Below, piece by piece: positions 2,630 through 29,566 of a stretch of 30,621 nucleotides of DNA; the stretch's first letter is position 1; each line of letters opens with the position of its first letter. The notes under the pieces were generated by a model. It ran no database searches, was not told the DNA's origin, and saw only the letters and a list, made by a program, of their open reading frames with translations. The DNA lies in the IMG/VR virus record IMGVR_UViG_3300030102_003785, positions 9,505 through 40,125 of that record; one strand, written 5' to 3'. The DNA is from a virus. The position numbers and the translations under genes were made by a program.

Positions 2630-4380
2630 TATTTATCCTCCAGTTTTGCTTTGAGTTCTTCTACTTCTGCCGACAGTTGTTGTATTGATTTTACTAAAAT
2701 AGGTATTAAATGTTCGTATTTAAGTTTATAGGAGTCTGGATTTCTTGTATTTACTATATGGTCTTCTGTCCAACCTATTGATTTTTCTATTTTTTGTATT
2801 TCTTGTGCAATAAATCCTACTTGTTTTGTAGTTGATTTTTTTGAATGATCTCTCTCTCCATATTTTTCATGTGTATGTGGATAATAATTATCTCTATTAT
2901 CCCAAACATAAGTAACAGGTCTCATTTGATTTACAAAATTCAAACCTGCATTGTCAGATAAAGTTTCTATATCTGTTTTATCTCGTAAATCAGAACCACT
3001 TGTTAAAGCAACTTTACATTCAAAATTAGTGATTGAATTATTACCAAGTATTATTTGATTACTAGCAGTTGTTACACCTGCTAAAGCGTCTGCTCCTGAA
3101 TCTCTACCAACACAAATATTATTACTACCAGTAGTTATATTATTACCTGCATTACTTCCTAAAACTGTATTATTACTTCCAGTTGTCAATGATAAACCAC
3201 ATTGACCAATACCAGTATTAGAAGCACCTGAAGTTACATTAAATAAACAAGCATCACCTACAGCAGTATTCAGACCACCAGTACAGTCTTCTAATGCTCT
3301 AGAACCAACAGCACAATTTGATCCTGCTGTAATATTACTTGCTAATGCATTGTAGCCTATTGCTGTATTAAAACTTGCAGTAGTTGCTAGTTTTAAAGCG
3401 TTATAACCAACTGCTGTAAATCTAGTTCCTGTAGTTAAACTTTTACCTGCTTCATAACCAACTGCCACATGACCATCTGTTGTTGTTGTAGTTGTCAATG
3501 CTTGTGTACCTACAGCAACATTTTCTGTACCTGTAGTGTTTGCATCTAGAGCAGCATATCCTACTGCGACATTTGCTGTTCCTGTAGTGTTGACTGCTAA
3601 TGCTGTATGTCCAAAAGCAGTATTATTATCTGCTGTAGTATTAGCAGATAATGCTTCCACACCCATAGCTGTATTTCTAGTACCAGTAGTGTTTGAATCT
3701 AAAGCCAAAGCACCAACTGCAGTTAGTTGGTCTCCTGTGGTGTTTGCTTCTAAAGCTGATTTACCAATAGCTGTATTGCTATCTGCTGTTGTATTGTTTT
3801 TTAAAGAATCATGTCCAACAGCTACATTATTTTTACCTGTTGTATTATCTTCCATTGAATAATATCCAACAGCAACATTGTTTCTTCCTTCTGTATTGGT
3901 TTTTGCAGCGTTACTACCTATTATAGTATTACTATGACCTGTTGTATTTGCTAGTAAGGCTGCATTACCAATTGCTGTATTATCATCTGCTGTAGTAGCA
4001 TTTTCTAATGAATTTACACCTACAGATACATTTCCTGTACCTGTCGTGTTTGTTCTTAATGAATCTTTACCTATAGCAACATTATTATTGCCTGTTGTAT
4101 GATCTTCTAATGCTTTAAAACCTATTGCTGTATTACTATCGCCTGAAGTCAAACTTGAAAACACATCAACACCTAAACCTGTATTGTTAATAGCAGCATT
4201 TAAAGTACCTGTACTTGCGTTATCACTAATTAAAATACTGTCAGTAAAGTTTGTAGCATCAGCTAGAATACTTATGCCATTTATTGTGCCTGTTAATGTT
4301 ACGCCACCACTAGCTGTTTCTAATTTCTTTGATCCTGCATAATAAAGTTCTACAGCACCATCAGGTGTAGCAACAATCAT
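2629..4380 (-). CDS. Fibre protein 2, distal part: YadA-like head repeats plus S74 chaperone
   Basis: 583 residues. Roughly residues 75-400 contain about twenty 14-residue repeats of the form NTAIGxxALxANTTG, the signature of the left-handed beta-roll in the heads of YadA-like trimeric adhesins. A C-terminal S74-type domain follows, starting SDLRDKTD, with Ser463 and Lys468 at the expected dyad spacing, and a coiled coil ends the protein. It begins MIVATPDGAVELYY, which aligns with an internal segment of fibre 3 (SIVASADGAVTLYH) rather than with a fibre N-terminus. This ORF is therefore probably the distal part of a fibre whose proximal part is the 123-residue ORF just upstream. The two share an ATGA overlap, which would allow coupled translation. 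Confidence 0.85.
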   Translation of the reverse strand: MIVATPDGAVELYYAGSKKLETASGGVTLTGTINGISILADATNFTDSILISDNASTGTLNAAINNTGLGVDVFSSLTSGDSNTAIGFKALEDHTTGNNNVAIGKDSLRTNTTGTGNVSVGVNSLENATTADDNTAIGNAALLANTTGHSNTIIGSNAAKTNTEGRNNVAVGYYSMEDNTTGKNNVAVGHDSLKNNTTADSNTAIGKSALEANTTGDQLTAVGALALDSNTTGTRNTAMGVEALSANTTADNNTAFGHTALAVNTTGTANVAVGYAALDANTTGTENVAVGTQALTTTTTTDGHVAVGYEAGKSLTTGTRFTAVGYNALKLATTASFNTAIGYNALASNITAGSNCAVGSRALEDCTGGLNTAVGDACLFNVTSGASNTGIGQCGLSLTTGSNNTVLGSNAGNNITTGSNNICVGRDSGADALAGVTTASNQIILGNNSITNFECKVALTSGSDLRDKTDIETLSDNAGLNFVNQMRPVTYVWDNRDNYYPHTHEKYGERDHSKKSTTKQVGFIAQEIQKIEKSIGWTEDHIVNTRNPDSYKLKYEHLIPILVKSIQQLSAEVEELKAKLEDK

Positions 4381-4748
4381 GTTTTAATAATATCATCATC
4401 ACCTAAAACTAGATGTGTTGCTAAAGTTGTTACACCAGTAACATTAAGAGTTCCACTTACAGCTATATTGGTGTCTAACTTAGCACTTGTAACCTGTCCA
4501 TCTCCTAAATGTGCTGTGTCTATAGAACCATCAACATACTGATCTGAATCAACACTATTTGATGACATCTTTGCGTTTGTGATTGCACTATTAGAAATCT
4601 TAGCTGTAAGAATTGCATCGTCTGCAATCTTTGCTGTAGTTATAGCATTGTCATTAATAGAAGCAGTTACAACAGAGTTACTTGCTAATTGATCTGCACC
4701 AACTGCATCATCTTTAATTACACCACTTGTGACTTTAGTATTAGCCAT
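4377..4748 (-). CDS. Fibre protein 2, proximal part (N-terminal stem, separated by frameshift)
   Basis: 123 residues. It is made of short stem repeats such as AITTAKIADDA, AILTAKISNSA and AITNAKMSSNS, then TSAKLDTNIAVSGTLNVTG and ATHLVLGDDD. The last part aligns with residues around 15-50 of fibre 3 (TSAKLDTNISISGTLGVTG, ATHLNMGDND). The reading frame then stops at TGA inside ATGA, where fibre 3 continues for about 40 residues that are absent here. The start ATG overlaps the end of the giant fibre gene by eight bases and has GGAG upstream. It may be a free-standing adaptor that attaches the distal fibre, or the product of a deletion that split one gene. Confidence 0.75.
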   Translation of the reverse strand: MANTKVTSGVIKDDAVGADQLASNSVVTASINDNAITTAKIADDAILTAKISNSAITNAKMSSNSVDSDQYVDGSIDTAHLGDGQVTSAKLDTNIAVSGTLNVTGVTTLATHLVLGDDDIIKT

Positions 4749-7700
4749 TGTCTTTTAACTCCTTAACTTCTGCTTTAAGTGTTTCTATTTGCTCTTGTTG
4801 TTCTTGTATTGCTTTGACTAATAATGGTGTTATTCTTCCATAATCCATGCCTTGCATAATTTGACCATCTTTTTCACCTGATACTGCATCAGGAAATATG
4901 TCTTGAACTTCGTGTGCAATAAAACCTTCACTTGATGTACCATCTGCTTTCCAATTAAATTTAACTGGATTAAGTGCATTAAGTCTTTCTAAACCATTTT
5001 GTATTGGTTCTAAATTTTCTTTAAGTCTGTAGTCAGAACCTGTATCATAAGTAGTGCCTGTGTTTGATACACTAATAAAACCAATTTCTGTTCCTGAAGA
5101 ATTTCTATGGAATAAAGAAAAGTGAGTTGTTCCACTTGTGGAGTTTACTGTTTCTATAAATGGGTCACTTGGTGTAGCATTTCCAAATATTTGACCTCCT
5201 GTTCTTCCTGAAGTTACACCTACTAATACACTTCCATTACTTAAATCACAAGCAATAAAATTATGTGTCAAAGAACCATCATCATCTGATAAACCTTGAA
5301 TTTTTAATTGCGATGCATCAAGTGTAAGTCTTGCTCTTTTTTGCCCTGATGTTGAACCAATATCTTCTAAATTAAATTCAGGTGGATTACCTACAAAGTC
5401 AAAATCTGTAATACTGTTACCTTGAATTTTTACTGCATCACCTGCACCTGTTAAATTAACATCTAATTTTGCAGCAGGAGTAGTCGTTCCAATTCCAACA
5501 TTACCTGTATTTGTAATTACTAAAGGATTAAAGTGTGCACCGCTTCCATCTTGAGGGTCACCATCTTTAGCATTACTACAGCCAATGGTGAAGTTACCAA
5601 AAGCACTACCACCATTTCCTATTGACCAGTTTCTGCTAGCAGAATTACTACTAGTATCTGTTAGATATATTTTTGCCATTCCATCAAATGTAGTTGTATC
5701 GCCTTTAATATCTAATTTTGCTGCAGGAGAAGTTTGATTAATACCAACTCTTCCTGAACTATCAATACGCATTCTTTCTGCATTATTAGTAGCAAAAATT
5801 GACGCTGTGTTTTCATAATTGTAGTGATAAGCATTTCCTGAAGCATCAACGCCTACAAATAATCCATCACTTGTTGTAGTACCTGTGTTAGAATTTTGAT
5901 ACCTTATACCAGCAGATGAAGCACCTGTACTTCTAACCCTCATAGTCATATCATCTGTATCAGTTACATCTAATTTACTTCCACTAATTGGAGAACTTGT
6001 ATTAATACCAATATCTCCATCACTAGAAATACGCATTCTTTCTGTTGTAGTAGATGGGTCTCCATTTGTACCACCAGTTTTAAATATAACAGCACCAGAA
6101 GCACCATTAGCAGTAACTGTCATATGAACATTAGAGCCACCTGATGAAATTTGTGCTGTTGCATCTGTATTACCTACTAAAAGGCTTGAATTAAATATTG
6201 CTTTACCTGCTTCTGACATATCAATAGTAAGAGCTGTAAAACCTGAACCTCCATCATTACCTTTTAATTTAAAATCTTTATCTGACCCACTTACTGTAAA
6301 AGCTGTAGAATCAGATTCTTTTTGAATAAACCCAAATTGAGTTCCATCATCTGAAAAAATAATGACACCTGTATCAGAATCAAGAGTAATATTCCCACCA
6401 ACATCTAGTGTTAAAGCTCCACTATCAGAAATAGTAGAACCATCAATAGTAATATCATCAACTGTTAAAGCTGTTAGAGTACCTAAACTTGTTACATTAG
6501 TTTGTGCTGCTGTTGCTAGTGTTCCTGTTATGTTTCCTGATACTGATAAAGTGCTATCTAAAGTAGTTGCACCTGTTACATCTAATGTTCCTGCTATATC
6601 TATATTAGTATCTAGTTTTGCAGAAGTTACTGCATCATCTGCAATTTTTACTGTTGTTACTGCATTACTTGCTAGTTTTGCACTTGTCACATTAGCATCA
6701 GCAATAGTACTGGTGGTTACTGTATCTGAAGCTGGTGTGTTAAGTGCAGTTTGACTAAACATGATTACATCAATAGCTGTGCTATTTACTGGTGCAGTAT
6801 CAAAGGTTAGAGTTGTACCACTTACTGTGTATGTACTTTTATGTTGATAAACACCATCAATGTAAATCTGTGTATTATTCTCATTAGTTGGACTTATAGA
6901 TAATGTGAATGCAACTGTTGATCCATCTCCTGTAAACGCATTTTGTGTCACAGAAGAACCTGATATGTTTGCTTTTATGTGGTTTATTACTATCTTTCTA
7001 CCACTAACAGGTGCTGTATCTAAAGTGACTGTAGTACCACTAGCGACAAAATCTGCTTTGTTTTGATACACACCATCAATAAATATTATTAGATCATCTT
7101 CATTACTTACAGTAGAACTTATTGTAAATGCTCTTGTACTACCATCACCTGTGAAAGTATTAGTTTCCATAGCACTTGCACCACCACTTCCAGCGATTTC
7201 AGCAAATTCCGTACCATCATGTCCTTCAAACTTACCTAATGTAGTGTTAAACCTGAAGTCACCTGCTGTTCCTGAAGGTCTTTGTGCTGTCGTACCTGAA
7301 GGTACTTTTATTGATTCAGTACCACTCAATGTCATGTTTGCAAAAGTAGGACTGCTAGAAGTTGCTACAGCTTGTCCAATAGATACTGCTGTGCCTGATA
7401 CAGAAACACCAGTGCCTGCAGTAAGAGTAGTAATGTTCGCTGATCCATCAAAGCTAACACCATTGATTGTTCTAGCATTTGCTAAAGTAGTTGCTGTACT
7501 TGCTAATGCAACAGCAATATTTGCACTTCCATCAAAAGAAGTACCACCTATTGTTCTTGCTGTAGCTAGTTTTGTTGCAGTAGCAGCATTACCTGTTGTG
7601 TCCTGATTACCAGTCGTATTGACACCTGCAAGATTAATATTAGCTGTGCCATCAAATGATACTCCACCTATTGTACGAGCATTCGCTAATGCAGTTGCAG

Positions 7701-10700
7701 TATCAGCAAGTGCTACAGATATATTGCTTGTACCATCAAAGCTTGTTCCACCAATAGTTCTAGCAGTTTCTAATGCTGAAGCTGTACTTGCATTACCAGT
7801 AACAGCACCAGTTAATGGTCCAACAAAAGCGTCTGATGTCACAGTTCCATCAAAGAATGCATTTTTAAATTCAGCAGAAGATGTACCTAAATCAACATCA
7901 TCATCTGTAGCAGGAACTAATGCACCATTTGTAAGTTTTATCTGATTCTGATTACCTGCAAAAAAATGGATCTCATCTGCTGTACCAAAGTCTATTTTTG
8001 TTTGGTCATCTTCTCCAATCTTTATATCAGTAGCTAGTAAGCTTGTTATATTAGTTTGTGCAGGGTTTATAACGAAATCTAATGTCCCATCACTATCTTC
8101 ATAAGTGACAGTGATACCAGTTTCGGTATTACTAGAAACCATACCTCCAACAATGTCTTGTATTTCTTCTGTAGTTTTACCACTTTGTCCATAAGAAAAT
8201 GAGCCATCACCATCAGATAAAACTGCCTGACCTGCAGTACCATTACCTGATATGTTTAGTTGTGCTGCTCCCACAACATTGTCGTCAATAGTAGCACTAA
8301 GTGTTACATTACCTGATCCATCAAATGCAACAGCACTAGCTGTTATATCGCCTGATATTGAGAAGTTTCTACTGTTTGCAAGTGCAGTAGCTGTATCAGA
8401 ATTACCAGTAACATCACCTGTCAAATCACCAACAAAAGCTGTAGATGTGATTGAAGTAGCACCTGTCACAACACCAGCATCAATGATAATAGTCCCATCT
8501 AAAACAATTTGCTGACCTGTAAGAGGAGTTATATTGAGGTCTGTTCCTGCAGTACTAGATATTGTATTACCATTGATGTTGATATTATCAACTTGTAATG
8601 CTGTTAAAGTTCCTAGTGAAGTTATATTTGATTGAGCAGCACCTGTAACTGTTGCTGCTGTGCCTGAAACATTACCAGTGACATCTCCTACAAATGCTGT
8701 TGAAGTAATTGATGTCGCACCAGTTATAACTCCTGCATCTATAACTATTGCACCATCTAGCACTATTTGTTGTCCTGATAGTGGTGTAATGTTTAAATCA
8801 GTCCCTGCTGTAGATGAAATAGTGTTGCCATTTATATTTATGTTATCTACTTGTAAAGCAGTCAATGTGCCTAAACTTGTGATGTTTGACTGCGATGCTG
8901 TTTGTATTGTTCCTGTTAAATCACCAACTACATTACCTTCTAGACTTGCAATCAATGTACCTACTGCATATCCTGTACCTGATGTGTTAACAGTTGTAGT
9001 GGGTTCAGCTTGTAGATCTTTAAATAATTTAAATTTACCTGAGTCATTAGCATCTCTAAATAAACCTGCATATAAATCTTGTGATCCTGAAGTGTCATAC
9101 AGACCATAAAATCCTATATCAACACTATCTGCACCACTATTAGCTTTTGCAAGTTTAATAAGTGGATCTTCTACTTCTAATGTAGATGTATTTACTGTGG
9201 TAGTCGTACCATTGACTGTAAGATTGCCTGTAATAGTCACATTGTCAGGTAAACCTATTGTGACTGTCGCATTTTCACTTCCTGATCCTGAAACTTCTAT
9301 TTCATTACTTGTACCACTTATTCCTGCAACAAAGTTGCCAGTCGTGTCTGTTCCAAGAGCCACGCTGTCAGCTGCTATTGTCGTTGATAAGGTAATATTG
9401 CCTGTACCATCAAACGATACGCCTGAAGCAGTAACATCGCCTGATAAGGCTATCGTACGAGCATTTGCCAATGCAGTTGCAGTTGATGCATTACCTGTAA
9501 GTGCAGATGTTACTGTATTGAATTGGACATCATCAGATGTACCTACAGCTTGACCAATTGCAATAGTTGGTGTTGCAGATTCTCCACTATTATTAGAAAG
9601 ACTAACACCTGTACCTGCAACTAAGCTTTCAACATACGAACCTGTCGTATCAGTTCCTAAAGCGACACTATTTGCTTGTATTGTAGTTGATATACTAATA
9701 CCTGCTGATCCATCAAAGTTTGCAGTACCTACAACATCTCCTGAAAGTGCGATTGCTCTTGCTGTAGCTAGGGTTGTAGCTGTAGATGCATTGCCAACTA
9801 ACGCACCAGTGACTTGATTGAAAACAACATCATCTGAAGTGCCAACAGATTGACCAATTGCAAAAGTCACACCATTACCTGTAGCTGTAGAAGTGACTCC
9901 AGTACCACCTAGTAAAGATAATGTCTCAGAATCAAGATCAATAGCAATAGTTGAACTACCATCACTTATATCTAGGTCTTGTGCTGTAACTTGACTATCC
10001 ACATAAGTTTTTATTGCTTTTGCAGATGCTAATGTTGTATCAGTACCTGCTACACTTGATAGATCTGTATCCAATACACCAGATTTAAGATTATCTACTT
10101 CAATATTACTTACAGTATTATTATCTAAATCAATGGTCTTATTTGTAAGTGTTTGACTGCCTGTGAGTGTCGCCACAGTATTATCAATGGCAAAAGTGAC
10201 TGTATTTGTGTTTGCAGTTGAATTAATACCTGTTCCACCTGCTAATGTAAGTGTTTCGGAATCTAAATCTATAGATATATCGTTACTACCATCAGATACA
10301 TCTAAATCTTGTGCTGTAATCTGTGATTCAACAAAAGCTTTGATAGATTGCTGACTAGCAACTGCTGTAGCAGAATCACTAGCCATATTATCTTCATCTT
10401 TGAATGCTGTGCCTGATAATGTGCCATTAAGCACAGGACTTGTTAATGTTTTGTTAGTTAATGTAGCTGTAGTGCCTGAAAAATATGTATCAAGCCTTGT
10501 AACAGCTATTTGTTTCATTGTGCCATTGTCATTGACTATAAATTGATCTGCATCAACTACAACCACAGAACTTGCACTTGTATCACCATCTAATACATTA
10601 ATTTCTGTACCAGTCGTTGTTATTGCTGTTGTTCCATTTATTTTTGGCGATGTCAATGTTTTGTTTGTTAATGTTTGTGTACCAGTTAATGTCGCTACTG

Positions 10701-11550
10701 TTCCATCAATAGCAAATGTGAAGTTATTACCACTTAGACTAGATGTAAGACCAGTACCACCTAATAAACCAAGCACCTCACTATCTAGGTCTATTGATCC
10801 ATTGTTTGATCCATCAGTTATATCTAAATCTTCTAAAGTCAGTTGGTTATCTACATAAGCCTTGATTGACTGTTGTGAAGCAACTTTAGTTGCACTATTA
10901 CTTGACATATCATCTTCATCAAGAAATGCACTTCCTGATAAAGATGTATTTAATACTGGTGATGTAAGTGTTGGTGCAGTTAATGTTTTATTTGTAAGAG
11001 TTTGTGTGCCTGATAAAGTTACTACAGTTGCATCAATTGCAAAGGTCACATTGTTTCCACTAGCTGTACTACTAATACCTACACCACCAAGTAATCCTAA
11101 AGTTTCGCTATCTAAATCAATTGCAATGGTTGTGCTTCCATCTGAAATATCTAAATCTTGTAATGTTACTTGTGCATCTACATATGCTTTTATACTTTGT
11201 TGTGTAGATAATGCAGTGGCAGAATTTGAGTCCATGCCGTCTTCATCAAGTATTGTGGTTACTGTTGCACCACTTTCGCCTAATTGTAAGTTAAATAGTT
11301 TTTGTGTTAGTTGTTTGCCTTCTGTTGTGTCGTTTGCTGTCCATTTAACATTAGCATTATCATAAATAAGCAAAGCACCATTATTACTTGCACCTGCTGT
11401 ATCTTGGTTGATACCTCTTGCCATGATGGCACTTGGACCTGCAACTCCTTGTGTACCAACTGTTGTAACTGTAATACCACTTGTATCAGTAATTGTGATC
11501 TGATTTACAGTACTTACACTTGTAATTGTAATGCTATCAACAGAACTCAT
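4741..11550 (-). CDS. Giant repetitive fibre protein 1 with S74 chaperone
   Basis: 2269 residues, the largest gene here. Domains in order: (a) a short N-terminus; (b) four tandem units containing 'QDLDISDGS..IDLDSETL.LLGG' and 'GTQTLTNKTLTSP'; (c) several 'GNASTATALANARTIALSGDV' units; (d) two nearly identical 86-residue units around NININGNTISSTAGTDLNI; (e) two 'FTGDGSTxAFTxS…IDGVYQ' modules; (f) AKLDTNI stem and SSGRVGIN-type repeats; (g) a C-terminal S74 chaperone starting SDYRLKEN, with Ser2172 and Lys2177 as the presumed self-cleavage dyad, ending in a coiled coil. The start is an ATGA junction with the beta-sandwich gene. Likely a long homotrimeric fibre. Its place next to capsid genes leaves both tail and head attachment possible. 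Confidence 0.9.
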   Translation of the reverse strand: MSSVDSITITSVSTVNQITITDTSGITVTTVGTQGVAGPSAIMARGINQDTAGASNNGALLIYDNANVKWTANDTTEGKQLTQKLFNLQLGESGATVTTILDEDGMDSNSATALSTQQSIKAYVDAQVTLQDLDISDGSTTIAIDLDSETLGLLGGVGISSTASGNNVTFAIDATVVTLSGTQTLTNKTLTAPTLTSPVLNTSLSGSAFLDEDDMSSNSATKVASQQSIKAYVDNQLTLEDLDITDGSNNGSIDLDSEVLGLLGGTGLTSSLSGNNFTFAIDGTVATLTGTQTLTNKTLTSPKINGTTAITTTGTEINVLDGDTSASSVVVVDADQFIVNDNGTMKQIAVTRLDTYFSGTTATLTNKTLTSPVLNGTLSGTAFKDEDNMASDSATAVASQQSIKAFVESQITAQDLDVSDGSNDISIDLDSETLTLAGGTGINSTANTNTVTFAIDNTVATLTGSQTLTNKTIDLDNNTVSNIEVDNLKSGVLDTDLSSVAGTDTTLASAKAIKTYVDSQVTAQDLDISDGSSTIAIDLDSETLSLLGGTGVTSTATGNGVTFAIGQSVGTSDDVVFNQVTGALVGNASTATTLATARAIALSGDVVGTANFDGSAGISISTTIQANSVALGTDTTGSYVESLVAGTGVSLSNNSGESATPTIAIGQAVGTSDDVQFNTVTSALTGNASTATALANARTIALSGDVTASGVSFDGTGNITLSTTIAADSVALGTDTTGNFVAGISGTSNEIEVSGSGSENATVTIGLPDNVTITGNLTVNGTTTTVNTSTLEVEDPLIKLAKANSGADSVDIGFYGLYDTSGSQDLYAGLFRDANDSGKFKLFKDLQAEPTTTVNTSGTGYAVGTLIASLEGNVVGDLTGTIQTASQSNITSLGTLTALQVDNININGNTISSTAGTDLNITPLSGQQIVLDGAIVIDAGVITGATSITSTAFVGDVTGNVSGTAATVTGAAQSNITSLGTLTALQVDNININGNTISSTAGTDLNITPLTGQQIVLDGTIIIDAGVVTGATSITSTAFVGDLTGDVTGNSDTATALANSRNFSISGDITASAVAFDGSGNVTLSATIDDNVVGAAQLNISGNGTAGQAVLSDGDGSFSYGQSGKTTEEIQDIVGGMVSSNTETGITVTYEDSDGTLDFVINPAQTNITSLLATDIKIGEDDQTKIDFGTADEIHFFAGNQNQIKLTNGALVPATDDDVDLGTSSAEFKNAFFDGTVTSDAFVGPLTGAVTGNASTASALETARTIGGTSFDGTSNISVALADTATALANARTIGGVSFDGTANINLAGVNTTGNQDTTGNAATATKLATARTIGGTSFDGSANIAVALASTATTLANARTINGVSFDGSANITTLTAGTGVSVSGTAVSIGQAVATSSSPTFANMTLSGTESIKVPSGTTAQRPSGTAGDFRFNTTLGKFEGHDGTEFAEIAGSGGASAMETNTFTGDGSTRAFTISSTVSNEDDLIIFIDGVYQNKADFVASGTTVTLDTAPVSGRKIVINHIKANISGSSVTQNAFTGDGSTVAFTLSISPTNENNTQIYIDGVYQHKSTYTVSGTTLTFDTAPVNSTAIDVIMFSQTALNTPASDTVTTSTIADANVTSAKLASNAVTTVKIADDAVTSAKLDTNIDIAGTLDVTGATTLDSTLSVSGNITGTLATAAQTNVTSLGTLTALTVDDITIDGSTISDSGALTLDVGGNITLDSDTGVIIFSDDGTQFGFIQKESDSTAFTVSGSDKDFKLKGNDGGSGFTALTIDMSEAGKAIFNSSLLVGNTDATAQISSGGSNVHMTVTANGASGAVIFKTGGTNGDPSTTTERMRISSDGDIGINTSSPISGSKLDVTDTDDMTMRVRSTGASSAGIRYQNSNTGTTTSDGLFVGVDASGNAYHYNYENTASIFATNNAERMRIDSSGRVGINQTSPAAKLDIKGDTTTFDGMAKIYLTDTSSNSASRNWSIGNGGSAFGNFTIGCSNAKDGDPQDGSGAHFNPLVITNTGNVGIGTTTPAAKLDVNLTGAGDAVKIQGNSITDFDFVGNPPEFNLEDIGSTSGQKRARLTLDASQLKIQGLSDDDGSLTHNFIACDLSNGSVLVGVTSGRTGGQIFGNATPSDPFIETVNSTSGTTHFSLFHRNSSGTEIGFISVSNTGTTYDTGSDYRLKENLEPIQNGLERLNALNPVKFNWKADGTSSEGFIAHEVQDIFPDAVSGEKDGQIMQGMDYGRITPLLVKAIQEQQEQIETLKAEVKELKDNG
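8461..8634 (-). repeat. Internal fibre repeat, copy 1 (partner at 8719-8892)
   Basis: This segment and 8719-8892 lie 258 bases (86 codons) apart and encode almost the same amino acids, including NININGNTISSTAGTDLNI and GQQIVLDG. At the DNA level about four codons in five differ, nearly always at the third base. The protein repeat is therefore conserved while the DNA repeat is not. Confidence 0.8.
8719..8892 (-). repeat. Internal fibre repeat, copy 2 (partner at 8461-8634)
   Basis: Second copy of the unit described at 8461-8634. Amino-acid differences are few and conservative (for example Ser/Thr and Val/Ile), whereas most codons use a different synonymous third base. Confidence 0.8.
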
Positions 11551-20754: not shown

Positions 20755-21387
20755 ATGTCCATAGAAATGATGAATAGTGCTTGGAACACTGACGATCTCA
20801 CTCCAACAAAAAAACTTATATTACTTTTATTAGGTAGCTATGCTGATGAAAATCACCAGTGCTACCCTTCACACAAACATATTGCTAAAAAGATTGGTTT
20901 AAAAGATACGAAGGGCATACAAAAAACAATTAAAGAGTTTGAACAACTTGGTTATCTAAGGATTGAAAGAAGAACAAAGCAAAATGGTGCATATACATCT
21001 AACAAATACACTTTGACACTGCCATTGGGTGTTAGCACCCATAGGGGTAATAAAAGGGTGAGGGAAGGGGCAGAAACACCTGTTAATACAAAAGAAGAAA
21101 CAAAAACTTTTATTTATACAGATGAATTTGAAACATTTTGGGATCTATATCCAAGAAAAGTAGCTAAAAAGAACGCATACAAATTTTTTAAAAAAGTACC
21201 TGCAAAAGATTATGATTTACTAATTGCTTCAATAAAAAATTTAGGTAAATCAAAAATTGACATAAAGTACATTCCATATCCAGCAACTTGGTTAAATCAA
21301 GAAAGGTGGAAGGATAAATTTGAAGATATTAAGGAAGATCAAACAAATAAATCTACATCAAACTGGCATGATGATCTAGATATATAG
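20755..21387 (+). CDS. Replication initiator-like protein with winged-helix N-terminus
   Basis: 210 residues. Residues 1-90 form a helix-turn-helix_36-type domain: MSIEMMNSAWNTDDLTPTKKLILLLLGSYAD, CYPSHKHIAKKIGLKDTKGIQKTIKEFEQLGYLRIERR. A linker follows. The C-terminal part, YTDEFETFWDLYPRKVAKKNAYKFFKK … YIPYPATWLNQERWKD, is typical of phage O-like/DnaD-like replication proteins. It probably binds the origin and recruits host or phage helicase. I chose the ATG at 20755 because family members start with a similar MSI-x-x-MN-x-AW. There is no Shine-Dalgarno sequence. The stop lies in a palindrome shared with the stop of the convergent kinase gene. Confidence 0.85.
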   Translation: MSIEMMNSAWNTDDLTPTKKLILLLLGSYADENHQCYPSHKHIAKKIGLKDTKGIQKTIKEFEQLGYLRIERRTKQNGAYTSNKYTLTLPLGVSTHRGNKRVREGAETPVNTKEETKTFIYTDEFETFWDLYPRKVAKKNAYKFFKKVPAKDYDLLIASIKNLGKSKIDIKYIPYPATWLNQERWKDKFEDIKEDQTNKSTSNWHDDLDI

Positions 21388-21903
21388 ATCTTCATATATT
21401 TTATTTGCTAATTTTTTTGTATCGTCTAGGTCATGTAGTTCATAAAAAGATGTATGCTCTGAGATAATTGGATCAAACAAGATGTTATTGATCTTAGTTT
21501 TTCTGCCTTTTAAAAAAGATTCTTTCTGATTGTCATCTCTCTCAATATGTCTTTGCTTTAAAGTTTCATCATTATTTCTTAAAACAATTATTTGTGTATC
21601 AAAGTTATCAATACATTTTTTTAAAATTTGTTTAGTAAAAAGTCTATCTCCTTCAAAAAGTATATTTGTTTTTGTAATATCTAAAAATTTAATCATATCT
21701 ACAGGTGCAGCCATGCTTAACCTATCTGTACCACCAAACTTTTGACCTTCTGGGTAATGACCAATAATACAAGTATTTTTATACATTGATCCATTTAATA
21801 ATTTAAACTTCCAATGTTTTTTTAAGCCACATAAAGATATAACTTCACGCATTAAAGTAGATTTACCACTTGCAGGAACACCACCAATAGCTATGCATTT
21901 CAT
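21376..21903 (-). CDS. P-loop kinase of the DNA hypermodification cassette (candidate 5-hmdU DNA kinase)
   Basis: 175 residues. Walker A is GGVPASGKST at residues 7-16. A Walker B-like strand is NILFEGDRLF (E84, D86). Arg-rich lid-like residues (KQRHIERDD) follow near 115-123, as in small nucleoside/nucleotide kinases. On its own it would be an unassigned P-loop kinase. Its ATGA overlap with an aGPT-PPlase/HMUDK-type helical gene and its operon with a TET/JBP dioxygenase suggest it phosphorylates hydroxymethyl-pyrimidines in DNA, the activating step known for 5-hydroxymethyluracil DNA kinases of phages such as SP10 and ViI. The fold is clear; the substrate is inferred. Confidence 0.8.
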   Translation of the reverse strand: MKCIAIGGVPASGKSTLMREVISLCGLKKHWKFKLLNGSMYKNTCIIGHYPEGQKFGGTDRLSMAAPVDMIKFLDITKTNILFEGDRLFTKQILKKCIDNFDTQIIVLRNNDETLKQRHIERDDNQKESFLKGRKTKINNILFDPIISEHTSFYELHDLDDTKKLANKIYEDLYI

Positions 21904-22874
21904 AATGTATTGTAATTAAAAGTACCTGTATCAAGAAACACATCATAAAGATTATCTCTTATATTCCTACTAGCACTTTGTGATTTAAATAAAGTTTCTT
22001 CTCTTGCGTCCCAAAATACTTGCCAATCAATACCAAACCAATCATCACCTTCTACCTTTTTTATCTCTTCAGCTTGTCTATCTAAATAATAGCCAAGATA
22101 CCTACCTCTACTTTTTCTATATATTTTTTTGTAGCTACACAATAAGGTTTCCATTTGGTAATAATCCATTTCAATATTATATTGATCTAATAATTCATTT
22201 TTAATATTTATTGCTTCATGATTCATATAATCAATGCACGATCTATGTAATTTTTTATCAATCCAATCATCTTTATTTAATGCATAACAAAAGCCATTTC
22301 TATGCGATCTACTACCAGAGTAGTCCTCTAATTTCAGATCACTAGGGTTTAGATCTACTCCAACACAATCTTTAAGTGTCTGCATATAATACCAAGTTGA
22401 GTATCTGCCAAATTTGTATAAATTTTTGTTGATTGTTTGCCAAAGGAAATCAAAAGATTGTTTTTGAATAAAGTTATTGAATCTCTCTCGTTGTGTGCCT
22501 GTTTTGTTATTGTGATTTATCCATTTTTTATAACTAGCAAATTGTTGCGGAAGATAGCCTTTATTATATTTAGTGTCAGTTTGATAACGCAATCTTTTGT
22601 AATTTTCGTCATTCCACCATTTAAGTCTGTCTTGATCAACAAGTTCATAGTCAGGAAATTCATTCCAAATAATCCAAGCTGTTGGTAAATGATAAGTTGT
22701 CCCATATATCCAAGCAATCCAATATTTTTGCTCTATATTATGCTCGTATCTATCAAAAAGATAATTTAATAACCATAGTGCAGGATCACAATCATTGTTT
22801 TTAATTGACCAAGCACACCAATTAATAAATCCTGACCTACGATTTTCAGGCAATCTATAATCAATATTACTCAT
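21900..22874 (-). CDS. aGPT-PPlase / 5-hmdU DNA kinase helical-domain protein (thymine hypermodification)
   Basis: 324 residues, all-helical and rich in aromatic residues. Key motifs are FGRYSTWYYMQTL (155-167), D-L-N-P-S-D-L-K-L-E-D and SGSRSHRNGFC (186-196). The SGS-x-SHRNG motif is what I associate with the alpha-glutamyl/putrescinyl thymine pyrophosphorylase and HMUDK helical-domain families. These have a DNA glycosylase-like fold and act on pyrophosphoryl-hmU in DNA, or support the kinase step. It overlaps the acetyltransferase gene by eight bases and the kinase gene by four. In some phages the helical and kinase parts work together or are fused; here they are separate genes. Whether this copy transfers a side chain or only assists the kinase cannot be decided from sequence. 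Confidence 0.8.
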   Translation of the reverse strand: MSNIDYRLPENRRSGFINWCAWSIKNNDCDPALWLLNYLFDRYEHNIEQKYWIAWIYGTTYHLPTAWIIWNEFPDYELVDQDRLKWWNDENYKRLRYQTDTKYNKGYLPQQFASYKKWINHNNKTGTQRERFNNFIQKQSFDFLWQTINKNLYKFGRYSTWYYMQTLKDCVGVDLNPSDLKLEDYSGSRSHRNGFCYALNKDDWIDKKLHRSCIDYMNHEAINIKNELLDQYNIEMDYYQMETLLCSYKKIYRKSRGRYLGYYLDRQAEEIKKVEGDDWFGIDWQVFWDAREETLFKSQSASRNIRDNLYDVFLDTGTFNYNTL

Positions 22875-23481
22875 TAAACAAATGTTTTCTTAACCAGCAA
22901 TCACCAGCTTTTTGTATCGCTTGATATGTCATCATTAATTTATTGTTTGATAACTGTAGTGTTTCAATATCTTCAGTCTTTAATTTATTGCATATTTTTT
23001 CTTCAGGTATTAATAGACTTGGATTTTTTAGACCTTGCTCACGAAATTTAATTTGTTCTTGACTGCTTTCTTTTAATGGTTGATCTGATCTTAAACTGCC
23101 TTGCTTATCAACAGACCAAAAAACTAATCCATTTTTTTTGTGGAAACCTATGCTATCTGGTGTACATGATAATTTTATCCTTTGCATACCTCTTTTAATG
23201 CAATATTTTGCATGAAGATCCCAGACTTCTCTGCCATATCCTTTACCCTCTTTACCTTGTAATGTGACAATCTCATATAAATTTACATATTTAGTTCTAT
23301 CACTTCTTGTTGCAAATATAAGACTGACATATTCATTATCATCAACTAAAGCAAAGGGTGGGTGTTTATCATAATTACCAAATCTGATCCACAAACTATG
23401 TGAAGCTTTTAAAAAATTAGTATTACTACCTGATTTAGATTTTTTTATAATATCTTCTACTTCATAATCTTTAATAAACAT
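22867..23481 (-). CDS. GNAT-family N-acetyltransferase of the modification cassette
   Basis: 204 residues. The GNAT core runs from about residue 30 to 125. Strands around EYVSLIFATR and YVNLYEIVTLQG lead into the acetyl-CoA pyrophosphate loop GKEGKGYGREVW (76-87). After that come a helix, the strand QRIKLSCTPDS and the FHKKNGLVFW motif common near the end of GNAT domains. The C-terminal 70 residues are charged and helical, outside the usual core. In a thymine-modification operon, GNAT enzymes are predicted to acylate an amine on the base side chain (known association from comparative genomics of phage base modification). It begins in a TAATG junction with the amidotransferase gene. Confidence 0.85.
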   Translation of the reverse strand: MFIKDYEVEDIIKKSKSGSNTNFLKASHSLWIRFGNYDKHPPFALVDDNEYVSLIFATRSDRTKYVNLYEIVTLQGKEGKGYGREVWDLHAKYCIKRGMQRIKLSCTPDSIGFHKKNGLVFWSVDKQGSLRSDQPLKESSQEQIKFREQGLKNPSLLIPEEKICNKLKTEDIETLQLSNNKLMMTYQAIQKAGDCWLRKHLFNE

Positions 23482-24140
23482 TATTGTAGATCACCTTTAG
23501 ATTTTCTTATCATTACTTCATTTAAACCATTCTTACTTAATTTATAGTCAATACAACATTGTGTTTTGATAATGTTTTTTATGTTTGATCTAGCTAATAT
23601 ATCTTTTGTACTTGCTATGTAATATGTATTTTTATAGTTTGCATAATATAGTGGTCTTTGCTCATTGCGAAAAAATCTAATTGTAGGTGTATCTTTATTA
23701 TCAAGTAATATACATGACATAGATCCATCTAAATTTAATGGGTGTATATTTTTATTGTAATGTTTAAGTAAAATTTCTGAATCACACTTTGTATCAAATT
23801 TCATATTGTAAATTGATTGCCATTTTTTTGCGTCTGTTTGGGTCACAACACCATTATGCACAATAGCTACATCATCATATATTATTGGTTGGTTATATTG
23901 TAAATCGCTAGTGCTATATCTACAGTGTGCAATTAGATGTTTTGTTTTAATCTCAGGCAAATCAAACTTATCAGCTGAATGCTTAACTATTTTATGTTTA
24001 ATAATTGATTTATTATTTTCCCAATCAATCCATGACAGACCTGTAGCATGTTTACCTCTTATCATAGATTGTAAAAGTAAAGTTTGAATGATCTCCTGAT
24101 CAATATTTTTTTGGGAAAAGATCCCAATAACACCACACAT
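23481..24140 (-). CDS. Class II glutamine amidotransferase (Ntn hydrolase)
   Basis: 219 residues. The protein starts MCGVIGIF, so Met removal exposes Cys2 as the N-terminal nucleophile, as in GlmS, PurF and related GATase II enzymes. Other landmarks are HCRYSTSD (R74), AIVHNGVVTQ (N96-G97, oxyanion hole) and KCDSEILL (D120). It would split glutamine to release ammonia for a partner synthetase, but no synthetase domain is attached, since the family's glutaminase domain alone fills this length. In the operon it could aminate or amidate the hypermodified base side chain. It is joined by TAATG overlaps to the dioxygenase upstream and the acetyltransferase downstream. Confidence 0.88.
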   Translation of the reverse strand: MCGVIGIFSQKNIDQEIIQTLLLQSMIRGKHATGLSWIDWENNKSIIKHKIVKHSADKFDLPEIKTKHLIAHCRYSTSDLQYNQPIIYDDVAIVHNGVVTQTDAKKWQSIYNMKFDTKCDSEILLKHYNKNIHPLNLDGSMSCILLDNKDTPTIRFFRNEQRPLYYANYKNTYYIASTKDILARSNIKNIIKTQCCIDYKLSKNGLNEVMIRKSKGDLQ

Positions 24141-25030
24141 TAGTTCAGTTTTTCACCTCTTTTCCTATTTTGTGCTCTTTTTAATTCTTCTTTAGCATTT
24201 AAACAATTAAACATATTTTCTCTGTAATAACACACAATACTAATTCTTTCATATGCAAGTTGTGATTTAATTTCTGTATTACCATGATATTCATGCACAT
24301 TAAAGAAACAAACATCACCTGAACGAACATCAAAAGCAACTCTGTATCTAGGAATTGCAGTATAACCACCTTCATATTTACCTGCTTGTAAAACAGCTAA
24401 ATTACCTAATCCACCCTCATAATCACCAGCATCAGTATGCAAAGCTGTTCTAAAATTTTTATTTACAGTGATTGTGGTAAACACAGTATCTTTTATTACA
24501 AAGTCTTTTTCAGTTTTATCTGTCATTGTTTTTTGTGCATAATATTTTTCTGGACAAGCTTCCTCAAATAATTTATCTATATATTTAATATAAGGATAAG
24601 CATCACTGAATTGCTGAAAATTTTTTTCAAGCCATGCTGTTTGTCTGCAATAAGGAAATCTAGCGTTGCGGTCAAAATAACCAACAATACCAGAGTTTAC
24701 TTCTTTTGATGAATTAGTTTTACTTAGAGTTCCATCTTTTTTAATTTTTGCTGTTCTTGTAGCTAGATGATTTACCTCATCAATAAGTCCTGCTGCTGCA
24801 CCTCTATTATTTGAGGGCATTGCTGCTTTTCTGAGTGATTGATAGGCATTAGCACAAAGCTTTGAAGGTATTTTATTTTTTCTAAAAAAGAATAAAGGTT
24901 CACCTTTTTCATTATATGCATTGCAATCATCTTTTATTAATAGGTCATAATCTTTATCTGTGACCCATTCACCTGCTTTTGCTTTGGCTTCTTCAAAAGA
25001 ATAATGTGGTTTAAGATTGTATGTTTTCAT
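24140..25030 (-). CDS. TET/JBP-type Fe(II)/2-oxoglutarate dioxygenase acting on DNA pyrimidines
   Basis: 296 residues from the ATG at 25030; an in-frame TTG at 25036 is less likely. The double-stranded beta-helix core is in the C-terminal half. LHTDAGDYEGGLGNL supplies the HxD pair (H198, D200), FFNVHEYHGN the distal His (H249 probable) and ERISIVCYYR an Arg (R262) for 2-oxoglutarate. VFTTITVNKNFRTALHTD and GGYTAIPRYRVAFDVRSGD match the TET/JBP superfamily layout. Such enzymes hydroxylate the methyl of thymine (JBP) or 5-methylcytosine (TET). No cytosine C5-methyltransferase is visible here, which favours thymine, although a methyltransferase could lie outside the window. The start overlaps the end of the ParB-like gene by about 20 bases. 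Confidence 0.87.
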   Translation of the reverse strand: MKTYNLKPHYSFEEAKAKAGEWVTDKDYDLLIKDDCNAYNEKGEPLFFFRKNKIPSKLCANAYQSLRKAAMPSNNRGAAAGLIDEVNHLATRTAKIKKDGTLSKTNSSKEVNSGIVGYFDRNARFPYCRQTAWLEKNFQQFSDAYPYIKYIDKLFEEACPEKYYAQKTMTDKTEKDFVIKDTVFTTITVNKNFRTALHTDAGDYEGGLGNLAVLQAGKYEGGYTAIPRYRVAFDVRSGDVCFFNVHEYHGNTEIKSQLAYERISIVCYYRENMFNCLNAKEELKRAQNRKRGEKLN

Positions 25031-25628
25031 ATGCAATTTTTACTGCTTCATAAGTTGTTGATGTTATATTTTCTGATCCCCAAGAATTTTGTAAAGCTTC
25101 GCACATCATTCTAAATTCAGGCTCAGTTTCAGTATCTAAAAACAAGTTTACCATGCGTATATTACTTTGTTGAATATTTTCTAGATCTATATTTTCTGAT
25201 TCTATTTCATTAATTGGCTCATCAAACTCAATAATATCTGATGTAATCTTTTCAATACTATCATAGTCAAAAGCTGTGCTTGTTAGATCAAAGTCCATTT
25301 CTGCTAATGCTTGAAACTCTTTTGATAATAAATCTTTATCCCAATCTGCAAACTCACCTATTTTGTTATCTGCAATCCTAAAAGCTTTTTTTTGTGCGTC
25401 AGATAAATCTATTGCTTGATGTACTGGAACTTTCTTTAAACCAATGATCTCTGCTGCTTTAAGCCTTGTATGACCTGCTAAAACAATCATATTTTCATCA
25501 ACTACAATTGGAACTCTAAATCCAAAGTCTTTAATACTTTGTGCAACTTTATCAACAGCTTCAGCATTATTTCTAGGATTATCGTCATAGGGTTTGATGT
25601 CTTTAATATCAGTAAGTTTAACTTTCAT
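25011..25628 (-). CDS. ParB/Srx-like domain protein of the modification cassette
   Basis: 205 residues. Residues 1-75 form a ParB N-terminal domain: DIKPYDDNPRNN, VAQSIKDFGFRVPIVVDEN, and the ParB box AGHTRLKAAEIIGLKKVPV (51-69). Residues 75-120 (KKAFRIADNKIGEFADWD … LLSKEF) match the linker found in phage ParB-DNA methyltransferase fusions. No methyltransferase motifs follow. Instead there is a 90-residue tail ending NLFLDTETEPEFRMMCEAL … TYEAVKIAYEN. It is therefore a ParB domain without its usual methylase, positioned directly before a TET/JBP dioxygenase. It may bind or select DNA, or use CTP/ATP as other ParB-fold proteins do; the role is inferred. It overlaps the regulator gene by 11 bases. 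Confidence 0.85.
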   Translation of the reverse strand: MKVKLTDIKDIKPYDDNPRNNAEAVDKVAQSIKDFGFRVPIVVDENMIVLAGHTRLKAAEIIGLKKVPVHQAIDLSDAQKKAFRIADNKIGEFADWDKDLLSKEFQALAEMDFDLTSTAFDYDSIEKITSDIIEFDEPINEIESENIDLENIQQSNIRMVNLFLDTETEPEFRMMCEALQNSWGSENITSTTYEAVKIAYENIQS

Positions 25629-25836
25629 TGTTTATCCCATAAAAATCGTTAGGCTCAACTTCGCCTTCGGTTATTTTGTAAATTGTAAGCATATCATCTC
25701 TTCTTGGTATTCTTACACCTGTAATCCACTTGGCAAATGTGCTTTGTGGTATTTTATTGCCTGTAGCCATTTCAACCATGTCAAGAAATGACAACTGTGT
25801 GTAATCCTCTTTTTTAAGATAATCTTTAAGCAACAT
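25618..25836 (-). CDS. Cro/CI-like helix-turn-helix regulator
   Basis: 72 residues from the ATG at 25836 (MLLKDYLKK), which fits the usual start of small Cro-type proteins. A GTG at 25851 would add five residues and has AAGGA seven bases upstream, so it remains possible. The HTH is FLDMVEMATGNKIPQSTFAKWITGVRIPRRDDMLTIYKITEGEV, followed by EPNDFYG, a common ending in phage XRE-family repressors. It is the first gene of the modification operon and is divergent from the recombination operon. The conserved ATATTCC-N5-AGG element lies in the gap between them. It is the best candidate for the protein that reads that element in all four promoters. Confidence 0.85.
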   Translation of the reverse strand: MLLKDYLKKEDYTQLSFLDMVEMATGNKIPQSTFAKWITGVRIPRRDDMLTIYKITEGEVEPNDFYGINNES

Positions 25837-25842
25837 ATCAAC

Positions 25843-25848
25843 ATTATA
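25843..25848 (-). promoter_or_regulatory. Possible -10 box of the regulator/modification operon promoter
   Basis: On the minus strand a perfect TATAAT ends six bases before the ATG at 25836. If used, the transcript would be leaderless at that ATG. The matching -35 position falls inside the ATATTCC-N5-AGG element and is a poor match (AGCCTT), so this promoter could depend on, or be blocked by, a protein bound there. Confidence 0.4.
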
Positions 25849-25854
25849 CACATA

Positions 25855-28716: not shown

Positions 28717-28965
28717 ATGAAAGTTATAGAAGCGTTAAAGATACAAAGTATTTTAGATAAAAGAGAAATACCATGTGATATACATGATGAACTTACATAT
28801 TATTCTGAATCGCAAGATAAGTATATTAAAGTGCATGACATGGATATAACACATTTAGTAAGAGCATTCTTAAGTATGCAAGAAAAGTACAATATAGCTT
28901 TACACAATTTTCTAAATCAACACATGACACAAAAAATTCGTGACGAAAAAAAGAAAAAATATTGA
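28717..28965 (+). CDS. Small helical early protein, function unknown
   Basis: 82 residues, starting after TGAGGAA. It begins MKVIEALKIQSILDKREIPCDIHDELTYY, and the rest is mainly helical, including THLVRAFLSMQEKYNIALHNFLNQHM, ending in a Lys run. No family is recognised. It overlaps the GIY-YIG gene by 26 bases. Confidence 0.6.
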   Translation: MKVIEALKIQSILDKREIPCDIHDELTYYSESQDKYIKVHDMDITHLVRAFLSMQEKYNIALHNFLNQHMTQKIRDEKKKKY

Positions 28966-29566
28966 TGAAATCAAAAATGCATTAAGTACTGGTAAGAGAG
29001 ACTTTTTTACAAGTAATACTACAATGGGTACTATGTCTATTGATTTTAATAATTTTGGTAGTGCAACAGGAGCAATGAATGTTGTTAATACATGGAATAA
29101 TAATGTTTCAAGTAGTGGTAATATAATTGTTACAAAACAAAACTATACTCCAAAAGAAATTATTACTTTATTTTCTAGTTCTGCTTCACACAGAAGAAAA
29201 TTTAAAACTAAAGATATTTTTAAATCTGGTGTATATATTTTGTATAAAAAAAATGTTGTAGTTTATGTAGGCGAAAGTATAAATCCTTATCAGAGAATTT
29301 GCACACATCAAAAATCAGATAAAGACTTTGATTGTTTCAGAATCTTATATTGTAAAAAAAACAGAAGAAAATACTGGGAAAAAAAACTCATCAACGCATA
29401 TCTACCACAATATAATAAAACTAATAAAAAAATACCACAGAGAAATGTATATCATGAATCTGCAAGATTTCGTACAGTTTGGTCCACACCTATTGCTTAT
29501 TTATCTGCTGATAAAATTAAATTTTTAGGTGATACAATGCACGAATTAGTTGCTAATATTTTATAA
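28940..29566 (+). CDS. GIY-YIG endonuclease
   Basis: 208 residues from a GTG at 28940; no strong ribosome-binding site is seen, and an ATG at 29023 would remove the N-terminal 28 residues. The catalytic domain begins near residue 95: GVYILYKKNVVVYVGES is the GIY … YIG pair (GVY and YVG), then QRICTHQ with the conserved Arg, and YWEKKLINAYLPQYNK with the metal-binding Glu and the Asn near the end. The N-terminal 90 residues are Ser/Asn/Gly-rich and of unknown role. There is no intron or homing context, so a role in DNA cleavage during infection, such as host DNA breakdown or repair, is more likely than homing. Confidence 0.85.
   Translation: MTKKRKNIDEIKNALSTGKRDFFTSNTTMGTMSIDFNNFGSATGAMNVVNTWNNNVSSSGNIIVTKQNYTPKEIITLFSSSASHRRKFKTKDIFKSGVYILYKKNVVVYVGESINPYQRICTHQKSDKDFDCFRILYCKKNRRKYWEKKLINAYLPQYNKTNKKIPQRNVYHESARFRTVWSTPIAYLSADKIKFLGDTMHELVANIL

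Follow-up and report, generated by a model that had tools for sequence, protein, structure and literature searches.

Which base does a virus modify when it encodes, within a single operon, a TET/JBP dioxygenase, a glutaminase, an acyltransferase and a kinase, and what does it attach to that base? We addressed this question for a 30,621-nt stretch of DNA (the window), which comprises bases 9505-40125 of the 40,533-base IMG/VR virus record IMGVR_UViG_3300030102_003785 and has a G+C content of 33.5%. The window carries terminase, portal and capsid genes, and its source is a marine phage. A first-pass annotation, made from the sequence alone, had described a six-gene operon for DNA-base hypermodification on the minus strand at 21376-25628. 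All six open reading frames (ORFs) are there, each overlapping the next, and they encode, in order, a ParB-like protein, a TET/JBP dioxygenase, a class II glutamine amidotransferase domain (GAT), a GNAT N-acyltransferase, an amino acid:DNA transferase (ADDT) and a P-loop kinase. We favor, with modest confidence, a post-replicative hypermodification of thymine, in which TET, the kinase, an ADDT provided with ammonia by GAT, and GNAT would together produce 5-(acylamino)methyl-deoxyuridine (5-(acylamino)methyl-dU).

Enzymes of the operon

In the proposed pathway, TET would convert thymines within the phage DNA to 5-hydroxymethyluracil (hmU) by hydroxylating their 5-methyl group, possibly guided by the ParB protein, and the P-loop kinase would phosphorylate the hydroxymethyl group. 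GAT would hydrolyze glutamine and hand ammonia directly to ADDT, which would exchange the phosphate for it to give 5-aminomethyl-dU; GNAT would then move an acyl group, most simply acetyl, onto the amine to give 5-(acylamino)methyl-dU. By analogy, the modified base would shield phage DNA from restriction. An hmU source, a kinase and an ADDT form the defining set of a thymidine hypermodification pathway, and candidates for all three are present in the window, which by sequence and predicted structure places the operon in that pathway class. The features are as follows.

25618..25851, minus strand: small helix-turn-helix-like protein, 77 aa, GTG start (ORF); likely regulator and first operon gene
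25011..25628, minus strand: ParB_N-domain protein, 205 aa (Pfam ParB_N); probable DNA-binding or targeting factor
24140..25036, minus strand: TET/JBP 2-oxoglutarate/Fe(II) dioxygenase (Pfam Tet_JBP); predicted thymine 5-methyl hydroxylase acting on DNA
23481..24140, minus strand: GAT, a stand-alone class II (N-terminal nucleophile) glutamine amidotransferase domain, 219 aa (Pfam GATase_6); predicted glutaminase and ammonia source
22867..23481, minus strand: GNAT N-acyltransferase, 204 aa (Pfam Acetyltransf_1); predicted capping of a base-linked amine
21900..22874, minus strand: ADDT (formerly aGPT-Pplase2), 324 aa (Pfam PF18724); predicted phosphate-to-amine exchange on 5-phosphomethyl-dU (5-PmdU)
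21376..21903, minus strand: P-loop kinase, 175 aa (Walker A, weak Pfam match); predicted 5-hydroxymethyl-dU (5-hmdU) DNA kinase

Neighboring genes of the six overlap by 1-26 nt: 1 nt for TET/GAT and for GAT/GNAT, 8 nt for GNAT/ADDT, 4 nt for ADDT/kinase, and 26 nt for ParB/TET if TET starts at TTG or 20 nt if its start, as in relatives, is the in-frame ATG at 25030. A TET of 296 aa from this ATG is more likely than one of 298 aa from the TTG at 25036. The 77-aa gene overlaps the ParB gene, and proteins of 67-78 aa resembling its product sit before ParB in five relatives (L010, L020, L021, L022 and L023; L numbers designate viral loci from our searches), so the operon probably consists of seven genes. 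Database matches of the 77-aa protein to phage repressors were weak.

The first-pass annotation had named a profile search as the check on its TET/JBP assignment, and Pfam analysis placed the dioxygenase in Tet_JBP (1.8e-26; 92.7 bits against a cut-off of 34.9); TET2 structures were also matched in a profile search. The residues H200-x-D202...H251...R264, of which R264 is the 2-oxoglutarate-binding Arg, did not vary across 21 sequences. Like this motif, the Cys2 of GAT, the SGS-x-SHRNG of ADDT and the Walker A of the kinase are present as described earlier. The ParB protein matched ParB_N (5.7e-7, above the curated cut-off), phrog_620 (3.7e-51) and phrog_498 (1.1e-43; named DNA methyltransferase, and matched in its N-terminal part only). 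Its gene lies upstream of TET in most relatives of the window clade, and the protein may perhaps guide TET. In public records, TET/JBP relatives in Pelagibacter phage HTVC112P (gp18), Cr30, DLP_6 and S-CBWM1 are labeled as SNF2 DNA repair or DnaJ proteins.

The 324-aa protein had been described as aGPT/HMUDK-type. The first half of that description holds, as the protein belongs to PF18724 (2.8e-18; 66.9 bits against a cut-off of 26.2), whereas HMUDK_hel is a separate Pfam family. The protein carries the motif SGSRSHRNG, and its AlphaFold model, based on a 46-sequence alignment, has a predicted local distance difference test score (pLDDT) of 95.1. In a fold search with this model, the top PDB match was 8z2n, the 5-PmdU glycinyltransferase gp46 of phage PaMx11 (probability 1.00, E = 0.018); three gp46 chains were the sole convincing PDB matches (probability 1.00, TM-score 0.53-0.56, E = 0.02-0.04), and the next was 8-oxoguanine DNA glycosylase (probability 0.75). 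A sequence-only PDB search gave no real match. The BFVD fold search returned proteins named ADDT, and the window and Kuttervirus ADDTs align over their full length, with GSxSxRNG common to both. With the gp46 fold match and this end-to-end alignment, homology provides a sound basis for the phosphate-for-amine step on the base.

The GATase II and GNAT assignments were likewise borne out by profile analysis. GAT matched GATase_6 (2.8e-11, above the curated cut-off), and its closest structures were the PurF/GlmS/AsnB glutaminases. The cysteine nucleophile and glutamine-binding site (C2, R74, N96, G97 and D120) are intact in 43 of 43 sequences. GNAT matched Acetyltransf_1 (2.9e-6; 28.0 bits against a cut-off of 20.7), with the acyl-CoA loop EGKGYG, in which Glu replaces the usual Arg/Gln; its AlphaFold model (pLDDT 95.6) is closest in the PDB to the folds of SpeG, Ard1 and GCN5, all amine acetyltransferases. 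We infer that GNAT adds an acyl group, and acetyl is our simplest guess. TBLASTN identified no GNAT homologs among sequenced phages. For the kinase, the matches to AAA_18 (4.2e-5) and Ploopntkinase3 (0.0011) fell below cut-off; the Walker A motif GGVPASGKST is clear, phrog_800 was matched at 2.4e-11, and the Walker A Gly/Lys, FxGTD and EGxR residues do not vary across 15 sequences. Gene position and the P-loop make a 5-hmdU DNA kinase the predicted role.

Conservation of the operon and exchange of its genes

Using TET as bait, we identified 26 viral loci. Except where a contig stops short, L004-L021 retain the order ParB-TET-GAT-GNAT-ADDT-kinase, either exactly or with a single insert or a substituted GNAT, at identities down to about 68% (TET) and about 50% (GAT); the same gene order in many diverged viral contigs indicates that the operon is not a chance arrangement. 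With GAT as bait, relatives were encoded by 553 contigs, and the annotated loci, mainly from the best 80 of the 553, contain 60 distinct TET-to-kinase cassettes, 25 of which are ParB-TET-GAT-GNAT-ADDT-kinase without a recognizable carboxyl-activating enzyme. Because GAT itself had been the bait for these cassettes, the census was repeated with ADDT, which has relatives in at least 570 contigs, and with the kinase. No bacterial or prophage copies turned up when 84,980 species genomes were scanned twice.

The kinase bait yielded 43 distinct kinases with TET upstream. GAT and ADDT are present at 17 of these, with GNAT (8), with an unlabeled gene standing where L029 has a short GNAT (5), or with an amidoligase and a second GNAT type (4). 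An unlabeled gene precedes ADDT in 11 (by eye it is Rossmann methyltransferase-like in L028 and L206, the family not being confident), and nothing lies between TET and kinase in 9, of which L206 and L210 face an ADDT-like gene. Four encode a fusion of a pyridoxal phosphate (PLP)-enzyme-like N-terminus to ADDT, one has ADDT with a DAO-family flavin oxidase, and one has ADDT flanked by two unlabeled genes. The fused proteins (L201:2063-4198, L203, L204 and L207) are 711-712 aa long, with a weakly PALP-like N-terminal half (0.028 in L201) and an ADDT C-terminal half. At L214:4428-6004, a divergent ADDT and a flavin adenine dinucleotide-dependent DAO-family oxidase fill the slot of GAT-GNAT-ADDT; we read this oxidase and the GAT cassette as two possible ways to one aminomethyl base.

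An amidoligase gene lies between GAT and GNAT in L010, L012, L020 and others and is absent from the window phage. PF12224 matched 16 of 27 aligned amidoligase-like proteins (best E = 1.4e-6), and 2 of the 27 fall outside the amidoligase references. A Cys/Leu after SHRNG in ADDT was considered as an amidoligase marker; it held in L010, L012 and L020 but failed over 46 sequences. After the amidoligase, a low-molecular-weight phosphatase-like gene replaces GNAT at L086:9692-10126 (by eye) and L098:8692-9147 (by LMWPc scan). At L088:9243-10694 and similar loci, a gene of 430-500 aa, possibly a homing insert, often separates GNAT from ADDT; in L088 its start is GIY-YIG-like.

The close phages L020 and L021 differ by an exchange within the cassette. 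Identity is 95.6% and 87% in the two flanking blocks, where most 200-base bins exceed 92%, whereas from the end of GAT to mid-ADDT (L020, 11400-13590) the phages are unrelated or 60-73% identical, with breakpoints inside GAT and ADDT. The swapped block contains GNAT in one phage and an amidoligase plus another GNAT in the other. In L010, L020 and L029, the sequence in the GNAT slot is a different one but still encodes a GNAT. In L022, L023 and L027, glycosyltransferase-type genes come after the ParB-TET pair (in L027 a TET-associated glycosyltransferase [TAGT] by Pfam, in L022 a member of a phage glucosyltransferase family). The ParB-TET front end is thus constant, and the decoration genes are swapped between related phages.

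Proposed source of the amine

GAT is not fused to a synthase, and its constant neighbor is ADDT: in the ADDT-bait census, GAT was present in 60 of 60 loci with TET in reach. Three contigs (L051, L053 and L108) have TET-GAT-ADDT-kinase with no gene between, leaving the ammonia without an obvious acceptor other than the phosphomethyl base handled by ADDT. In an ADDT tree of 91 rows, those without GAT are all found on the same side of one branch; every row of the 77-row main group has GAT, and amidoligase presence switches at least 15 times. This linkage suggests ammonia as the ADDT nucleophile, and there is moderate support for its direct use by the ADDT of the window clade. As a broader proposal, tentative and at slightly under even chances in our estimation, the ADDT of this clade would be an ammonia-using DNA transferase with its own glutaminase, converting TET-made hmU in DNA to 5-aminomethyl-dU, capped as 5-(acylamino)methyl-dU, with no amino acid intermediate; phages would exchange the amine-making step (GAT, amidoligase, flavin oxidase or PLP-enzyme-like domain), diversifying their DNA chemistry.

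Alternatively, as is known from other phages, ADDT could couple phosphomethyl-dU to an amino acid, for example glycine, with GAT ammonia amidating the carboxyl group and GNAT acylating or altering the product. The resemblance of ADDT to the 5-PmdU glycinyltransferase and the amidoligase-like enzyme directly after GAT in many relatives are consistent with this route. We consider it unlikely, as the window phage and the 25 distinct cassettes of the same composition have no recognizable carboxyl-activating enzyme, and GAT is retained with neither amidoligase nor GNAT in L051, L053 and L108. An N-acylated or amidated product had been predicted from the sequence; the N-acylated form fits the proposed pathway, and the amidated form is less likely in the window phage, which has no counterpart of the amidoligase that many relatives add.

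GAT and GNAT could instead act on host proteins or metabolites, in which case TET, kinase and ADDT alone would leave an amino-acid-decorated thymine. LUZ24-like phages have GAT beside amidoligases with no TET or ADDT nearby, and host proteins are often modified by phage GNATs (PMC7824862). The constant presence of GAT in the ADDT-bait census, its accompanying ADDT into 5-hmdU systems without a detected TET, and the L020/L021 block, which spans the end of GAT, GNAT and half of ADDT, make this explanation very improbable.

Target base and relation to known systems

The TET substrate is a 5-methyl pyrimidine within DNA, and the first-pass annotation had allowed thymine or cytosine. No thymidylate-synthase family member over cut-off was found in the window record, which supports the earlier view that hydroxylation takes place on DNA; among relatives, only Cr30, L082 and L092 had one. 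In L082 and L092, a thymidylate-synthase-type enzyme and genes for 5-hmdU DNA kinases accompany GAT-ADDT, to which L092 adds an amidoligase and GNAT; HMUDK_hel was scanned in both, and HMUD2 in L082, its L092 counterpart being recognized by eye. No TET was detected in either, a weaker negative because the control genomes of that scan were also all negative. The occurrence of the decorating genes with two different hmU-making routes suggests that the GAT-ADDT cassette acts on hmU, pointing to thymine, although any of the records compared may be incomplete.

On the alternative reading, a methyltransferase of the host, or one that escaped our searches, would produce 5-methylcytosine for TET to oxidize, and hydroxymethyl-cytosine would be decorated by kinase and ADDT. 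Experimentally studied phage TETs reportedly act on 5-methylcytosine, and Methylophilales phage Melnitz-2 (L035) has an HhaI-like methyltransferase, TET, a 427-aa protein and a kinase of the window family encoded one after another, perhaps representing the pathway in a cytosine form. A C5-methyltransferase (PF00145) was not found in the 40,533-bp window record; one was found in 1 of 32 records (Melnitz-2) and in 0 of 50 further records, so that 80 of 81 other records, many of them fragments, had none. The 427-aa gene between TET and kinase is not recognizable as an ADDT (with no Pfam or PHROG match, it was not counted), and the GAT-ADDT cassette also occurs with 5-hmdU kinase genes. Based on these results, cytosine is quite improbable and the target is likely thymine. 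As a base-specificity marker, we dropped the TET residue located five positions after the first metal-binding His (Asp in the window, Asn in Rhodococcus equi phage Tonitrus), because it did not set Melnitz-2, with its C5-methyltransferase, apart from the others.

Several observations weigh against a thymine pathway with direct use of ammonia. The window kinase did not match the 5-hmdU DNA kinase families HMUD2 and HMUDK_hel (PF18747, PF18723), and Melnitz-2, where a related kinase and TET lie beside a C5-methyltransferase, suggests that the kinase family may also serve hydroxymethyl-cytosine. Most of the contigs are incomplete. In the ADDT tree, the side without GAT has a support of only 54 and long branches. 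Characterized ADDT-type enzymes use amino acids or amines, and we know of none that uses ammonia.

To our knowledge, the studied thymidine hypermodification pathways have no GAT counterpart. Iyer et al. are said to have predicted TET-fed base modification in phages in 2013 and may already list the gene set of the window. We found no description, in the literature examined, of the constant GAT, of the GAT-ADDT-kinase core or of its sharing between TET and thymidylate-synthase-type systems. The earlier suggestion that the modification may be undescribed is tempered by Tonitrus, which has a published five-gene thymine hypermodification locus (PMC11955845); TET-fed thymine hypermodification is therefore not new as an idea. 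The Tonitrus locus has ParB-like, TET/JBP-like, aGPT-Pplase2/ADDT and kinase genes close together in the order of the window; however, it has no GAT or GNAT, encoding instead a 293-aa protein without a confident family, and identity to the window proteins is only about 20% for both ADDT and TET.

In phages M6, ViI and phiW-14, the accepted scheme is that hmU in DNA is phosphorylated by a DNA kinase, after which an amine replaces the phosphate (PMC6449724). These systems share hmU, DNA kinase and amine transfer with the proposed pathway, and the Kuttervirus ADDT adjoins HMUD2; their hmU is thought to derive from the nucleotide pool, whereas the window TET would make it in DNA. As in the window, the first step is performed on DNA by TET/JBP in phage loci with TET and TAGT and in kinetoplastid base J, but the decoration there is a sugar rather than an amine. 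The CmoA/CmoX/CmoY carboxymethylcytosine system (PMC12783734) includes members with a glutaminase domain thought to supply ammonia for base amidation, and differs in its cytosine target, carboxymethyl handle and asparagine-synthetase-like ligase.

PaMx11 gp46 and gp47 reportedly add glycine and then cleave it oxidatively with a DAO-type flavin enzyme to leave 5-aminomethyl-dU. The ADDT fold (PDB 8z2n) and the aminomethyl intermediate predicted for the window phage are shared with this system, but the window operon has no flavin enzyme, and GAT would give ammonia instead; the relative L214 has a DAO-family flavin enzyme. According to its title, Wen et al. 2024 (cited in PMC11946847) describes a PaMx11 route to 5-aminomethyl-dU through glycine, and 5-aminomethyluracil is a known phage base (PMC11550810).

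If the proposed pathway is correct, hundreds of phage contigs would contain thymines that are aminated or acylaminated on DNA by way of TET, rather than through the nucleotide pool as in the phages studied so far; a glutaminase would join DNA-modification chemistry, with a concrete product to look for. Exchange of decorating genes between close phages would leave restriction and modification-dependent defenses chasing a moving target, and the enzymes could serve site-specific amination of DNA.

The 40,533-bp record has no exact terminal repeat of at least 12 bases. Elsewhere in the window, we recognized by eye three tail-fiber-like ORFs at 620-11550 on the minus strand (669, 583 and 2269 aa), each with an intramolecular-chaperone-like C-terminal end, and a GIY-YIG nuclease-like ORF at 28940-29566 on the plus strand.

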